Shown: one piece after another, positions 1,473 to 55,335 of the stretch | Numbering within the stretch: position 1 is the first letter of the stretch | Layout of the letters: every line of letters begins with the position of its first letter | NCBI GenBank assembly: GCA_950022655.1 | Contig: OX465587.1 | Coordinates: 31,499,716 to 31,563,715, forward strand | Length of the DNA stretch: 64,000 bases | DNA from: Alentia gelatinosa | Lineage: Eukaryota; Annelida; Polychaeta; Phyllodocida; Polynoidae | Direction of reading: 5' to 3' | Program-made: the position numbers and the translations under genes | Notes under the pieces: generated by a model | What the model saw: the letters and a program-made list of their open reading frames with translations, nothing else | Databases searched by the model: none | Told to the model about the DNA's origin: nothing

Positions 1473-1736
1473 TTTATCCTACCCCTAATATAAAATCCCA
1501 TAGACTTAACATTGAGTTTCCGTATGCCACGCTGACTGGCATACGGAGTTTTATATACCACTAGTGGCATACAGAATTATTATCATGTAATATTACAAAA
1601 TCGAAGAGACAGGGTAAGATAAAATCAAGACCTGATTTTGGGCTCCGGACTTCACTCGGCTTCGCCTCGTGAAATCACTATGCCAAACTCCAGTCATGGC
1701 ATACGGTGGCCAAGATTAAACCTCATCCAGTTTTAC
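1473..1736. mobile_element. Non-autonomous hairpin element, copy 1 (Crypton-1-like ends)
   Basis: Begins TTTATCCTACCCCTAATA. An inverted partner (GGGTAAGATAAA) lies at about 1612-1623, followed by an imperfect palindrome whose loop region reads CTCGGCTTCGCCTCG. The same three-part layout recurs at 49227 and 54531, and at 38297-41000 with a tyrosine-recombinase gene between the two inverted ends. This copy has no coding capacity. It also contains a nested small inverted repeat around CCGTATGCC / GGCATACGG. Confidence 0.65.
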
Positions 1737-1740
1737 GATA

Positions 1741-37840: not shown

Positions 37841-38279
37841 TTACACTGGCAACCAGAGCTACAAAATATTAGCTCTGGTCGGGTTAAATCCAGATGTCGC
37901 CTTGACCCTTTGCTGGTTCCCACCTGTGTAGTACTTATACCTTTCGCCATCTGGTGAATATTGGGTGCATTAAAGGGTAAAAAATGTTTGTTATACAATG
38001 TCATAACCTTAAAGCCAATTTTCCATTATCTTTATTCCTTTCCTGTATACTATTTCATAATATTTTGAATGTAATTTGTGGTATCTTTGTCAATTTGTTA
38101 GCAATGGATATTTCATATTAAGCATATCTGCTTTTATAGTATACATAGAATACAACTCGGTTTGAGGCGAGCACAAAAGGGATACCCAGGGGATACCGTG
38201 TGTGATTTACCCCGACCAACCCCTATATCGTAGAAGGGGTTGGTTGCCAAACTAGCGTATGCTCTGGTAGCCAGTGTAA
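37841..38279. mobile_element. MITE with TTACACTGGC ends
   Basis: Left TTACACTGGCAACCAGAGC, right GCTCTGGTAGCCAGTGTAA (one mismatch when inverted). 439 bp, non-coding. No convincing target duplication. Confidence 0.6.
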
Positions 38280-38475
38280 TGTATGACATATAGTGCTTTA
38301 TCCCACCCCTAATAAAGAACTGCCATAGGCTTAACATAAGGAAATTTTATGTGGCATGCCATGACATAAAGTGTTTTTTATGCCACTAGAGTAATAACAA
38401 TATTGACCAATCAGAGCGCAGCACGTCAGTTGCGGCCGCAAATAGTTCCGGAAAAATTTTCGTCGCGAGTTCAAA

Positions 38476-40414
38476 ATGGCAAGCGACTACACAAACCTTC
38501 CCATCTCGGGAATATTTGCCGAACCACTAAACGAATTCATATGTGAGATCGCTGGGGAAGTGTTGCAAGAAGAAAAAGCAATTAGTGATGATATAACTAC
38601 CTTTGATTTGATCACAGATGACTGGAATATCGCTTTTGAAGACGAATCAGTCCTTGAAACGTCGGAAAAATCGTCTGCTTCAAACGTTTCAGTTCCAGTC
38701 AGTGTTGTACAAGAAATAGCTGAAATCGGAAGAAAAGAACTAATGAGCGATGACCAACTACATGAATTCGTTAGAAGTAAACAAAATAAAAATACGACGT
38801 TGAAAACAGACCAGGTATGTACAAATACATAAATTCATAGTAGAAAGCGAAAAAACAACAATGAAATATAGTAAATAATAATCGAAATATTAAAATGTAT
38901 AGTTTTCTTCGCATACACAAATACCAAGAACATTTCTAAATGCTATCGTAAATATATTCCAACAATGAAATGAAAATATCTAACACGTTTTTGCAGGTTA
39001 TAAGACGATTCCAGAAATTCATGAGAGAAAACTACAAAGAAGATAGAGAATTGGAGGACATCGAAGTAACAAAGTTGAATAACTACTTCGCAAACTATCT
39101 ACTATCAGCGCGGAAGCCAGACGAAAGTGAATATGAACCCGTTACACTCACATCATTCTACTGCAGCCTTGACAGGTATATATATCAATTAGTATCTTTG
39201 AAATGTTGTAAAATGAACGATAATTCAGGTCGATTCAGAGCAAATAGGAGTCACAAAACTGGTGACGCCAGCTCTCTATAGGAATATCAACTAAAGTTAC
39301 TTCGCTGAGGCATAGCTGTCACTGCTGTCACTGCTAATTTGAGTTTGTTTTTATATATTTCAGATACTTGCGCGACAAGAATTATAAATTCAGCCCGATG
39401 AAATCCGATGAGTTTTCTTCCTGTCGTAATGTTTTAGCCAGCAAAAGAAAAGAATTGAAAGAATTAGGCCTTGGTAACAAACCGAATGCTTCGCAAGCCA
39501 TATCGGAGGACGAAGAAGAACGATTCTGGGAATTGGGGTTGTTGGGAAAAACGTCTCCCCGTACAGTTCAAGAAACATTATTATTTTATTTCACAAAGGC
39601 CTTTGGTTGGCGGGGTTGTGACGAGGCGAAAAAATGTCGTTATTCTGATATCTCGTTACAGGAGGAGAATGGACAACAATACTTAGTTTGGAACGAAAGG
39701 ACAACAAAAACCAGGACGGGAACGAGAGGAAGCGACCCCCGGCAAATTGCTCCTAAGTTGTGGGCAACTTATACTGACCGTTGTCCAGTCGAACTGTATA
39801 AACTCTTTCTTTCTAAACGGCCTAAGGCCACCTGTGTTCCAGATTTTGGATTTTTTTTGACAGTGAAGCAGAAAATGACAATTGAAGATCAAATTTGGTA
39901 CATTGCATGTGAAATGGGAGTAAATTATCTCTCTAAAGTGGTTCCAAACATGGCTAAACGGGCTGGGCTACAAGGGAAATACACCAATCACTCACTAAGG
40001 AAAACCGTATGTCAGACCTTACAAAATCGTACTGTGCCGCCAAATATAATATGTCAATTAACCGGACATCGCAACGTAAATTCACTAAATCATTATTCGA
40101 CGGCCAGTAAAGAACAACATGCAATGAGTGTAATGCTTACCAGTAGAACGAAGCGTACTGCTACAGCTGCCTTAGGGGTAAATCCAGATCCAAGTGACGG
40201 CGTGTTGGAGCTCGAACCACCGCCGGCAAAAGTAAAACCGGCCGTTGGCCAACTTCCAGCCGTGCGCCAAAGTGAGTTCCAAAATGCGGTGGCCGGCATG
40301 TTCAATTCCACTAATATAACGGGAAATGTCCACATCACAATGATCTATAACGTTTCCTCCTCTAGTTCTACACAAAGCCAGGTTAATTTGAGCCCAAATA
40401 TCCTGAAAAATTAA
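38476..40414 (+). CDS. Crypton-1 tyrosine recombinase, three exons, intact
   Basis: Exons 38476-38814, 38997-39175 and 39364-40414. Donors CAG|GTATGT and CAG|GTATAT and acceptors TTGCAG and TTTCAG are all canonical, and phases join to a 522-residue protein starting MASDYTNLPISGIFAE. It has an acidic N-terminus, a core-binding region with YEPVTLTSFYCSLDR, and a catalytic domain with FGWRGCDE (Arg I), NHSLRKTVCQ (HxxR), LTGHRNVNSLNHYS (GHR and nucleophilic Tyr). GLGNKPNASQAISEDEEERF matches the DUF3504 family related to KCTD1 and ZMYM proteins. A polyadenylation signal AATAAA is at 40550. No frameshift or stop is visible. Confidence 0.88.
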
Positions 40415-40875
40415 GATTTCCTCTCCTGCTATGGTAAATCCAATGTGCGTTGTATTCAAAATAGTTGACATCTAACCTAGACTCTTGTCTAGACTACTGT
40501 CCGACTGACCCACATAGCGGTGTGGCATTGTTATAATTAAGAGTTACTGAATAAAGTCTGAATTTCTTTAAAGTTGAAATTATTTGTGTTTTAATATATA
40601 TATATCTAAGAGAAATACAGTTTAATGAATGATTTTAACATTAAAAATTAAAAATGTCCACTAAAAACATTGCGGACTATATCCTGGTTCTCTCTACGGC
40701 CAAATCACTTCCGCTAGAGTCGGAGCGCTTCCACTAGATCACTGCATGGCGCGTTCTAGCGACAGTGTAAACAATGAACCAAGATGTCCATTTACTGGAT
40801 TAAAAGAGGAACTCGGTGAGTGTTGGACAATTTCTTAATATCATAAGATCATATTTAAGGGGGTGGGATAAATAC

Positions 40876-41000
40876 GGAACCGAACTCGAGGTAGCAGGTC
40901 GGGTTTGCTACTCACTACGCTCAGCTACGCCTCGCGTAGTAATTCGCTACCTGACCGTCGTGACATAACAACCCGACCTGCTACCTCTCGTTCAGTTCCA
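40876..41000. repeat. Crypton-1 terminal palindrome
   Basis: About 125 bp able to fold into a long hairpin. The arms pair through GGTAGCAGGTCGGGTT with AACCCGACCTGCTACC, and the inner part is TACGC-rich (GCTCAGCTACGCCTCGCG). Homologous in design, not in sequence, to those in the gene-less elements. Confidence 0.8.
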
Positions 41001-41344
41001 TTTAAGCCCTCTATGGTGTATAATTATAACTGCATTTGAATCAGGCTTTTGCACTAATTTTCGCCTATATGACTTGGCTTTGATCTTAAAACAAAATGAC
41101 TTAAAATAGCTTTATGAAAGATATAATTGGTTCACATACAACTTATTTAAGCATAAAACTTGATTTTAAACAAAAATGGTGCAAATTCAGCCTACAGTGT
41201 ATCAAAATTGACAGGCATGTCGAATGTGTCTATCACAATCTCCTAGCATACAATCTGCACTTCGTTCTATGCCTGCTTTTGGCTGGTTCCCGCCTGTGTA
41301 TTTTCCTGGGCAAGTGTGCCTATCACTCTCTCTACACATTCACT
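41001..41344. other. Spacer without recognised feature
   Basis: No coding region or terminus that I can support. Confidence 0.4.
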
Positions 41345-49226: not shown

Positions 49227-49531
49227 TTTATCCTACCCCTAATATAAAATCCCATAGGCTTAACATTGGGTTCCCGTATGCCACGCTGACTGGCATACAG
49301 AGTTTTATATGCCACTAGTGGCATACAGCATTATTATCACATAATATTCCAAAATCAAGAAGATGGGGTAGGATAAAATCAAAACCTGATTCGTTTTAAT
49401 CTTGGCCACTGCATTCCACTCCTGAAGTTTTGGCTCCGGACTTCACTCGGCTTCGCCTCATGAAGTCACTTTGCCAAACTCCAGTCGTGGAATACGGTGG
49501 CCAAGATTAAACCTCATCCAGTTTTACGATA
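49227..49531. mobile_element. Non-autonomous hairpin element, copy 2
   Basis: TTTATCCTACCCCTAATATA at the start, GGGGTAGGATAAA at 49365-49377, then a palindrome with arms TTTTAATCTTGGCCACTG and CGGTGGCCAAGATTAAA and loop CTCGGCTTCGCCTCATG. It is about 85-90 percent similar by eye to the copy at 1473. Non-coding. Confidence 0.7.
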
Positions 49532-50075: not shown

Positions 50076-51941
50076 ATGGCTACGGAGGGCGACTAATTGG
50101 ATTTGGAGGCAGAACTAATTTATCAAGAAGAAATCCATCGCACGGGCGAATATATATCAGATATAGCGAATAATTCGAAATCTCAGAACGAGTTGGAAGA
50201 TTTTATCAACAGTAAAAGAAGCAAGGAGACAATAAAGAAAACAACTTGCGATGTACGGCATTTCAGCGAATGGATATCCAAGGAGAAAAATGAAAGGAGG
50301 AAAATCGAAAAGATAGACGCCACTACGTTAAATCTACTTCTGGGTTCGTTTTTTATACACGTTACTCGCAAAGACGGAAGCGAATACGAACCTGACTCGC
50401 TATTTAGCAGCATAAAGAGATATTTGGAGACAAATGGCTAAGAAAAAAACATAAGTACGGCCTCTGAATTCCGCACTACCCGGCAGGTGAGAAGCAGCAG
50501 AAAGAAGGACTTAAAATCGAAAGGAATGGGCAATAGACCAAATAAGGTTGGTGATCGATTGGATATTGTTGATGAAAAATTTACAAAAAATATCTGTAGA
50601 TTAATAAATTATTTAGAAATATTTATATATATAAATGAAAAAAACATTAAGAGAAATATTAGAAAATTTACGATGGTAAAAGGAAATTGAAAATAAAATT
50701 AATAAATATAGGTATTTCTTGTCTTAAAATAAGGGTATAAAGTAAAAAAGAAATAAAAAAAATGCATTTATAATGAAGAGGAAGACAATTTATTTAATAA
50801 TATCAGAAATATTATATTTTTCAGTGCGATGCGTTAACTACTGAGGAGGAAGAGCGAATCTGGGATAGCGGGGCATTCGCGATTGATGACCCTACAGGGC
50901 TGAGGAACTCGCTATGGTATTTGACGTCGAAAAGTTTTGGATTACGAGGACGGCACGAGTCGCGACAGCTGCTATGGGGAGATATAGCAATCACGAAAGA
51001 CATGAACAACGACGAAGTCGCCACCTTCAGAGAAAGAGTGACCAAAACTCGTCAGGGTGACGGTACGAGTTCGCGAGCGTTCGTCCCAAAGATGTGGGAA
51101 AACAAGATCAACCCAGACAGATGCCCTCTGCGACGGCTGCAGATTAACGAGTCACATTGGCCTTTGGATACGCTTCACGAAAACGCGCCATTTCATTTGT
51201 GCGTAAATCACAAAAGATCGAGCTCCAACAACTGCTGGTATGCCCGAATGGCAATGGGCCAAAATGAATTGTCTAAAAGTCGCCACTGCAACAGCTGGGA
51301 TTACCGGAAAAAAATCAGCAACCACAGCATCCGTAAAACTACATGCACAAATTTGGTTCACGCAGGTGTCCCCCCGACAATCATCGCACAATTAAGCGGC
51401 CACAAAAACATTCAATCTATCGCCGCATACACGACAGCATCAGAAAATCAGCAGCGACAGATGTTCTCAATACTCAACGAGGGTAGATCGAGGTTTGGCT
51501 TACCTGGAGCAGGTCCTGCGACAGCTGCAGTACGGGAGGTGAGAATAAATCCAACGCCGATCATCAACTTAAATCCATGTTTTGTGTAGAAATAATAATA
51601 ATTCGGGTATATTTATAACACAGTGATCCTAAGGTTGAAGTAACTCCTCCTATGTGCAGGCTTGTAGATTATTGACGTTGATCCAACGCAGAACATCGAC
51701 TTAAATCTGCAGATTGAGTTGACGCTGACAGTCCTTGTAATTTTGTATAATTATCACAGGTTCCAGAGATTGAGAGTGTAGGAATGCAGACTGGAGCCGT
51801 TTCTGTGAGTTTGTTTGTTTGGGTAGTTTAACGTCCAATTTGTTCAATTAGACTGTGAGTGCGGCCGCAGTGGGAATGACTTGTGCAGTGAGCAGCGTAG
51901 ATGATGTCCCCCCCTCAGCGAAACGGCCGAAAGTGCAGTGA
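50076..51941 (+). pseudogene. Crypton-2 tyrosine recombinase gene, decayed
   Basis: ATG 50076 (MATEGD) is followed at once by a TAA (50094). A second in-frame TAA (50439) falls after SSIKRYLETNG. Exon 1 runs to 50546 (AAG|GTTGGT) and exon 2 from 50825 (TTTTTCAG|T). The catalytic domain is complete: FGLRGRHESRQLLWGDI (Arg I), NHSIRKTTC (HxxR), LSGHKNIQSIAAYTT (GHK and Tyr). A probable third exon starts at 51760 after a donor at 51538 and ends at TGA 51939 with a basic SAKRPKVQ tail, interrupted by a 42 bp LINE tail. Same DUF3504-type family as Crypton-1, but clearly diverged. Confidence 0.82.
51811..51852 (-). repeat. 42 bp LINE/SINE tail insertion in Crypton-2 exon 3
   Basis: CTGTGAGT at 51803-51810 and 51853-51860 flanks just (TTTG)n plus GGGTAGTTTAACGTCC and the next 18 bases. 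Total gain of 50 bp shifts the frame. Confidence 0.9.
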
Positions 51942-54530: not shown

Positions 54531-54838
54531 TTTATCCTACCCCTAATAAAAAACTCCATAGGCTTAACATTGGGTCACTGTATTCGGTCTGGAGTTCAGA
54601 AAAACGAAAAATATCGCTCTAGTGGGATACACTTGACAAATGACGTCATTTGTTATTCTAGAAGTAATTTAGATGGGCAGGGTAGGATAAATACTAAACC
54701 AAACTCAAGTTAGTCATGTTATTCTTCATTGCACTCCGGCAAGATCCCGTATTACTGCTCTCGGCTTCGCCTCGTGCAGTAATACGCGATCTTGCCATCG
54801 TGCAATAAACAACAACACAACTAACTCTTGTTTGCTTT
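54531..54838. mobile_element. Non-autonomous hairpin element, copy 3
   Basis: TTTATCCTACCCCTAATAAA at the start, AGGGTAGGATAAA at about 54680-54691, then a palindrome with arms AAACCAAACTCAAGTTAGT and ACTAACTCTTGTTTG and loop CTCTCGGCTTCGCCTCGTG. The palindrome stem sequence differs from copies 1 and 2, while the ends and loop are alike. Confidence 0.68.
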
Positions 54839-54867
54839 CTGCATAGTATGTCTACAAATAGTGCAGT

Positions 54868-55335
54868 GTTTTCGTGTAATGTCCAATTTGTTCAATTAGA
54901 CTTACCTTGAAACACTTTGATACACATAACTAACAGTTTACCCGCAACAGCCCATTGACCCTGAACTGACATCTGGGTTTGCCCGAATCTATGAGATGAA
55001 ATTAAGTAGAAATCTTATCTCTACACATTTACTGAGATGAGAGTTCTTTTACTTTCCACACTACATGGATATGGTATGAGAAGGATTGGCCTTTGATATA
55101 GCAGTAAATCTACCACTGCTGGTGTGAGGGAGAAAAGTGGCTGCAGTGGGACTCAAATCAACAAAATCTGCCAACCTTGCAAGTACAAGTCCAGTGCTCT
55201 TTACCACTGAGCTAACACTCCCCAACCCAGTCCCTCATTCATGCTTGCGTGCAAGCATATGCGGTCTGCACCAAGAGGAGGCATGACGATGAAGAGGATG
55301 AACAGATTGGTAATTTTTGTCCACCCCAGAAAACC
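54868..55335 (-). repeat. SINE-A copy 4
   Basis: 3' part at 54868-54905 (GTCCAATTTGTTCAATTAG) with degraded tail; body 54975-55335 with A box near 55205 (GAGCTAACACTCCCC, one insertion). Older than copies 1-3. Confidence 0.8.

Follow-up and report, generated by a model that had tools for sequence, protein, structure and literature searches.

A Crypton of Alentia gelatinosa with defined ends and a palindromic target, probably inserted by one crossover at a cassette-like attachment site

The window, a stretch of 64,000 nucleotides from the annelid Alentia gelatinosa, contains a complete transposable element with a tyrosine recombinase (YR) gene and three gene-less elements. The genome under study comprises 1.23 Gb in 101 contigs, and all counts given here were taken from this one genome. 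The features of the window are as follows, in window coordinates.

38298..41005, + strand: complete YR-bearing Crypton element, 2,708 bp, with junctions common to end-to-end copies
38298..38309, + strand: left terminal box TTATCCCACCCC, R'-like, from 53 aligned left ends
38476..38814, + strand: YR exon 1
38997..39175, + strand: YR exon 2
39364..40414, + strand: YR exon 3, with catalytic residues R256, K288, H382, R385, H408 and Y417
40861..40871, + strand: right subterminal box GGGTGGGATAA, R''-like
40876..40999, + strand: terminal palindrome with 52-nt arms that covary in relatives
41000..41005, + strand: terminal hexamer ATTTAA, followed by the host join
1474..1740, + strand: gene-less element of M type, right palindrome partly deleted
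49228..49531, + strand: gene-less element of M type, 304 bp; each of the 40 scored copies spans 1-304 exactly
54532..54845, + strand: gene-less element with ends like those of the L065 YR family; probable 3' end

The original prediction proposed that a start motif and its inverse flank a complete three-exon YR gene and that a long palindrome follows the right inverse. Both proposals were borne out: the gene is intact, with a predicted product of 522 aa, and lies between the boxes at 38298 and 40861, and the palindrome has 52-nt arms. The inverted repeat is asymmetric, the left copy being terminal and the right copy subterminal. The Pfam domains PF12012 (DUF3504) and PF00589 (Phage_integrase) were found in the YR protein, and the other ORFs of at least 60 aa that overlap the element are all of 115 aa or fewer. 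Judged by these ORF sizes and its length of 2.7 kb, the element appears, unlike DIRS and Ngaro elements, to be without a reverse transcriptase ORF. The DUF3504 domain and the animal host point to an intact tyrosine-recombinase element of CryptonA type. That Cryptons are generally described as lacking inverted ends, as the prediction also stated, agrees with the survey of Kojima and Jurka (2011; PMC3212892), whose account of animal Cryptons reports no terminal repeats. The repeats of the present element thus differ from a reported observation, not from a requirement of the class.

An 18-base start sequence was found exactly at 1473, 38297, 49227 and 54531 (+ strand), and these four matches in the 64-kb window compare with a mean of 0.14 in shuffled windows, none of 100 shuffles reaching four. 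Right inverse boxes lie at 1612 (one mismatch), 40861, 49366 and 54680. The three gene-less elements therefore have the start and inverse ascribed to them. The palindrome was found in two, with arms of 65 nt (49228) and 70 nt (54532); no matching pair was present for the 1474 element among the five listed, part of one arm having been lost. Although gene-less relatives of the autonomous-looking Crypton do exist, those in the window are not the derivatives that had been supposed. At both ends, the highest scores of the 1474 and 49228 elements are with the L066-L076 YR family and those of the 54532 element with L065, so descent from the 38298-41005 element was rejected. Its closest gene-less relatives (L026-L031) lie elsewhere in the genome and are 77-83% identical at the right end. 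In the search with the 49228-49531 element, 40 of 2,261 first-look candidates, which are not confirmed copies, were scored, the window copy included. At G000:C2:2657695-2658335, M copies without a gene directly follow one another head to tail; the second match begins at query base 8 and the third at base 1.

Two further observations concern the window itself. A second, broken DUF3504-type YR gene lies at 50097-51589, 570 bp downstream of the gene-less element at 49228-49531; its pieces are 33-34% identical to the first, it has an in-frame stop after the likely start, and no enclosing ends were found around it. A short unrelated dispersed repeat occurs at 54874-54900 and 12 more times in the window, the copies sharing 20-27 nt with at least 89% identity.

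A DNA search of the genome with the window element, in which 40 of 3,519 candidates were scored, found eight rows that run end to end, one of them the window copy; the seven others were 84-97% identical. By their junctions, the element begins with TTATCC and ends with ATTTAA. The T before TTATCC, which had been counted as part of the element, is absent in 3 of 10 copies and is therefore host sequence. The ends proposed originally were thus upheld by shared junctions and empty sites, after slight movement: the approximate bounds were shifted to 38298-41005, 1474-1740 and 49228-49531, all placed from copies and empty sites, and to 54532-54845, where the 3' end was set solely by resemblance to L065 and by the GTAT directly after it.

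Searching the genome with the protein yielded 107 stretches that match, 83 of 1,530 candidates having been scored, and the 30 best-scoring rows, 13 or so of which belong to the window's own family, were examined as YR loci. A left end together with a right box and its scored hairpin was present at 23 of the 30, counting L073, which is ambiguous in that its left and right boxes differ in type. A left end was seen at L049, L060 and L077, and a right box at L058 and L070; no ends of their own were found at L059 and L075. Three further divergent loci were selected from the protein table, blind to their ends, and both ends were found in L081 and L083 and the left end only in L082. Families whose YR is as little as about 50% identical in aa to that of the window element therefore have the same kind of ends, and the recombinase lies between such ends at many loci rather than only once, the outcome that would have told against the original reading. 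The divergent copy at L081 870-2594 matches query residues 24-492 in a single reading frame, lacks the two introns seen in the window gene, and has ends of the TTATCTCACCCC/GGGGTGAGATAA type. The start motif was found in no stretch of viral_contigs and in three stretches of bacterial genome contigs, and among the 80 pattern stretches given by a YR search of viral_contigs there was no relative.

All six catalytic residues are kept in 25 of the 30 loci, window copy included. Values of dN/dS were calculated by the Nei-Gojobori method against the window copy, and four divergent copies gave 0.16 (L013, dS 0.56), 0.21 (L017, dS 0.48), 0.14 (L018, dS 0.56) and 0.11 (L021, dS 1.0). Values of 0.11-0.21 imply that the gene was kept working between families while the elements spread; the alignments of L013, L018 and L021 contain stops, so these are dead copies from lineages that once worked. 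Close copies gave 0.15-0.51 (the 0.51 of L024 being based on 155 codons, and L023 being saturated), and some other pairs were higher (0.41, 0.56, 0.88 and 1.23) on few changes. These ratios indicate purifying selection on the YR gene. For 289 residues of exon 3, an AlphaFold model (mean pLDDT 80) matched the structures of QRICH1 (9hjt, rank 1), Cre, XerH and the integron integrase IntI (2a3v, rank 38), with TM-scores of about 0.4-0.57. Eighteen database proteins were found at 26-44% identity, and the two named ones are KIAA1958-like proteins of Pecten and Mytilus.

Empty sites were sought by joining the host flanks of filled sites, and empty paralogues at 70-88% identity were obtained for four: L014 (empty paralogue in L028), L027 (in L023 and at window 37842-37889), L029 (in L007 and L045) and L032 (in L023, with one gap 4 nt from the join). 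No target-site duplication was present at any of the four when compared with the empty paralogues, and insertion was precise; a model with target-site duplication was dropped on these comparisons.

Near-duplicates and tandem cases (3 of 68 left and 2 of 53 right flanks) were removed, leaving 65 left and 51 right flanks. On the left, positions -10 to -7 read R in 53, T in 35, A in 31 and H in 62; on the right, positions +1 to +4 read D in 50, T in 43, A in 40 and Y in 47. The target is thus RTAH-N6-DTAY, in which the arms are reverse complements across a 6-nt spacer and the element is joined at one spacer edge. The symmetry score was 1.35 at spacer 6 and no more than 0.02 at all other spacers between 0 and 18, and none of 20,000 column permutations reached it. 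The peak at 6 recurred in gene-bearing (24) and gene-less (25) subsets of the same material, where 66 and 61 of 5,000 permutations, respectively, reached the score, a modest result for each subset alone. Ten further copies, fetched after the target weights had been saved, all start with TTATCC and end with ACGATA; their targets averaged +3.6, as against -5.2 at random window positions (0 of 20,000 draws), and one of the ten scored below zero. The 3' flank of the 38298-41005 element, GCCC, is an exception to DTAY. A wider consensus (G at -12, C at +6) looked promising at first but is not claimed, the support for C at +6 having fallen when more flanks were included (chi 5.2). A YR dimer would be expected to use a palindromic target, and two arms around a 6-nt spacer are what a tyrosine-recombinase core site should show.

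Exchange of both strands across mismatched spacers, followed by random resolution, would leave the element's terminal hexamer on the left in about half of the insertions. The hexamer was found, within one mismatch, in 0 of 65 left flanks (chance 3.3%), tandem neighbours having been removed beforehand by longer matches. This count is unbiased on the left only, because right ends were found via the terminal sequence. In a duplex junction, the element's left arm (for example GTTCC) is a poor fit to RTAH. Exact head-to-tail junctions were found at L005, L026 (two), L063 and L035, and among the M copies on C2 mentioned above. Such neighbours would fit insertion at an existing attachment site, and tandem copies are also described for Helitrons (PMC7492417). 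At L035 (G000:C6:60012500-60013900), two elements stand head to head with their left boxes 6 nt apart, and the arrangement GGGGTGGGATAA-AGGCCC-TTATCTCACC is a full two-arm site with a 6-nt spacer.

The hairpin was examined in an alignment of twelve full-length right ends of 38, representing three end types. It has 53 pairs, 33 of which have changes on both sides, and 94% of cells are paired, as against 32-43% in slid controls; these counts are of sequences, not of events. On four of five measures none of 500 shuffles was as good, and on the fifth, further pair types, the alignment was not above shuffles (349 of 500 did as well). These changes show the hairpin to be maintained by compensation. 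In 42 of the 52 elements that were typed, left and right box correspond at two variable positions, as against about 31 expected from the frequencies, a figure worked out by hand; in L083 the boxes are a different yet matching pair, TTATCTCATACC/GGTATGAGATAA. When hairpin and 5' box were joined as in a circle, they folded into one hairpin (z -16.8; -11.3 in a second family), which indicates that a folded form is possible.

A constrained recombinase inside the ends, together with a two-arm core site with a 6-nt spacer, leads us to take the recombinase as what moves the elements. The element is probably an autonomous CryptonA-type transposon whose YR inserts it by one crossover at a cassette-like attachment site, related YRs moving the gene-less elements. 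The attachment site would be the 3' hairpin end joined to the 5' box, R''(GGGTRGGATAA)-hairpin-N6|R'(TTATCCYACCC), and the YR would join the element, probably as an excised circle, to the loose palindromic target RTAH-N6-DTAY, immediately 5' of DTAY and without target duplication. Related YR families would in the same manner move short gene-less elements that have their ends. The substrate is perhaps a folded single strand, and copies may be gained through replication of the strand left behind; we infer these two steps and the circle, whereas the insertion signature was observed.

A more conventional YR reaction is a less probable account, though one to be reckoned with: a double-stranded circle would undergo two strand exchanges with the target, and the hairpin would serve replication start, silencing or transcription end. 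This is the model proposed in print for fungal Cryptons (PMC3212892), and a palindromic target with a 6-nt spacer suits any YR. However, the single crossover edge (0/65) would call for extra assumptions, such as strand-biased repair, and the covarying hairpin and boxes would likewise need them. It is scarcely credible that the YR gene belongs to the host, as QRICH1 and KCTD1 do, and sits among repeats by coincidence. DUF3504 genes have been domesticated (PMC3212892) and QRICH1 is the top structural match, but the dispersed copies share sharp common ends and the catalytic residues are conserved in most of the loci.

It is also very unlikely that these are Helentron or HINE elements which acquired a YR gene and depend on a Rep/helicase for movement. 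The asymmetric inverted repeat, subterminal right copy and 3' hairpin are the layout described for Helentrons and HINEs, and a 5' T, insertion beside T, lack of duplication and tandem copies are also among the traits given for them (PMC4067079, PMC8969392, PMC7492417). Against this, PF14214 matched the genome at a single place (of 3 candidates), G000:C7:36821000-36829999 (L078); this sole Helitron Rep match has broken frames and PIF1-like pieces beside it, and the search used models only, by which a Rep outside Pfam could be missed. No paired ends of the Crypton kind were found in the 9 kb around this match, where box-like hits (two mismatches or fewer) are scattered and none is followed by CCATAG. 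A PF05970 (PIF1) profile search of the genome gave nine stretches at five places. Many divergent YR families have these ends together with constrained genes, and the palindromic target is that of a YR dimer. Helentron capture was rejected as the main reading after the Rep and PIF1 searches and a check of the gene inside the ends. Insertion by the element's own recombinase, through one crossover, is the reading preferred here.

With this element, animal Cryptons gain defined ends, a target rule and non-autonomous families. In the literature searched, mostly open-access and with Repbase outside its scope, nothing was found that joins Cryptons with such ends. The element shares with CryptonA (PMC3212892) an animal host, a single DUF3504-type YR gene, gene-less relatives and no reverse transcriptase ORF seen; it differs in its left box, subterminal inverse, covarying hairpin and palindromic target, the animal Cryptons of that account being without terminal repeats.

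The original prediction remarked on no target-site signature and on no likeness to HINE or Helentron ends or to integron cassettes. By their ends alone, the present elements would be called Helentron or HINE by a curator: non-autonomous Helentrons, HINEs and type-2 Helitrons are described with asymmetric inverted repeats, a 3' palindrome, no duplication, insertion beside T and many short copies, some in tandem (PMC4067079, PMC7492417, PMC8969392). They differ in that the present gene is a tyrosine recombinase and not a Rep/helicase, and the present target a two-arm palindrome; no autonomous Rep/helicase partner with these ends was found in the genome searched. Helitron/HINE-like elements of oysters are reported as abundant and not linkable to an autonomous one (PMC7492417), and none was detected in a further account (PMC7992393). 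A candidate partner is thus offered for orphan HINE-like repeats such as these, which might possibly share the ends.

In integron cassettes, R' stands at the 5' edge and R'' with an imperfect palindrome at the 3' edge, structure is kept more than sequence, and there is a single crossover edge, with head-to-tail neighbours, according to the attC features set out in PMC2727003. The present element agrees with these in box order, crossover edge and structural covariation. The present element differs in carrying its own recombinase, in having no attI platform, in its dispersed targets and animal host, and in that recombination of a folded strand is here only presumed. We tentatively suggest, at somewhat less than even chance, that animal Cryptons move like integron cassettes, one folded hairpin strand being recombined and the other replicated, and that orphan HINE/Helentron-like elements are partly YR-moved. 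If the folded-strand step is true, the integron mechanism has a widely multiplied animal counterpart (2,261 first-look candidates for one gene-less family); and if integron-like movement is true, tyrosine recombinases and not a Rep/helicase would move part of the orphan HINE/Helentron-like elements, which are numerous in molluscs and have no autonomous partner known there. The SE elements of Vibrio (PMC9345347) are described with YR proteins, imperfect inverted end motifs, a 6-bp crossover region and strand bias, as here; they differ in being bacterial, of 7.1 kb and with four shared coding sequences, and for SE-6945 no inverted-repeat motif is reported as detected in attB, attL or attR. These SE elements are described as forming strand-biased circles while leaving no empty donor site, which serves as a precedent for the multiplication proposed here (PMC9345347).
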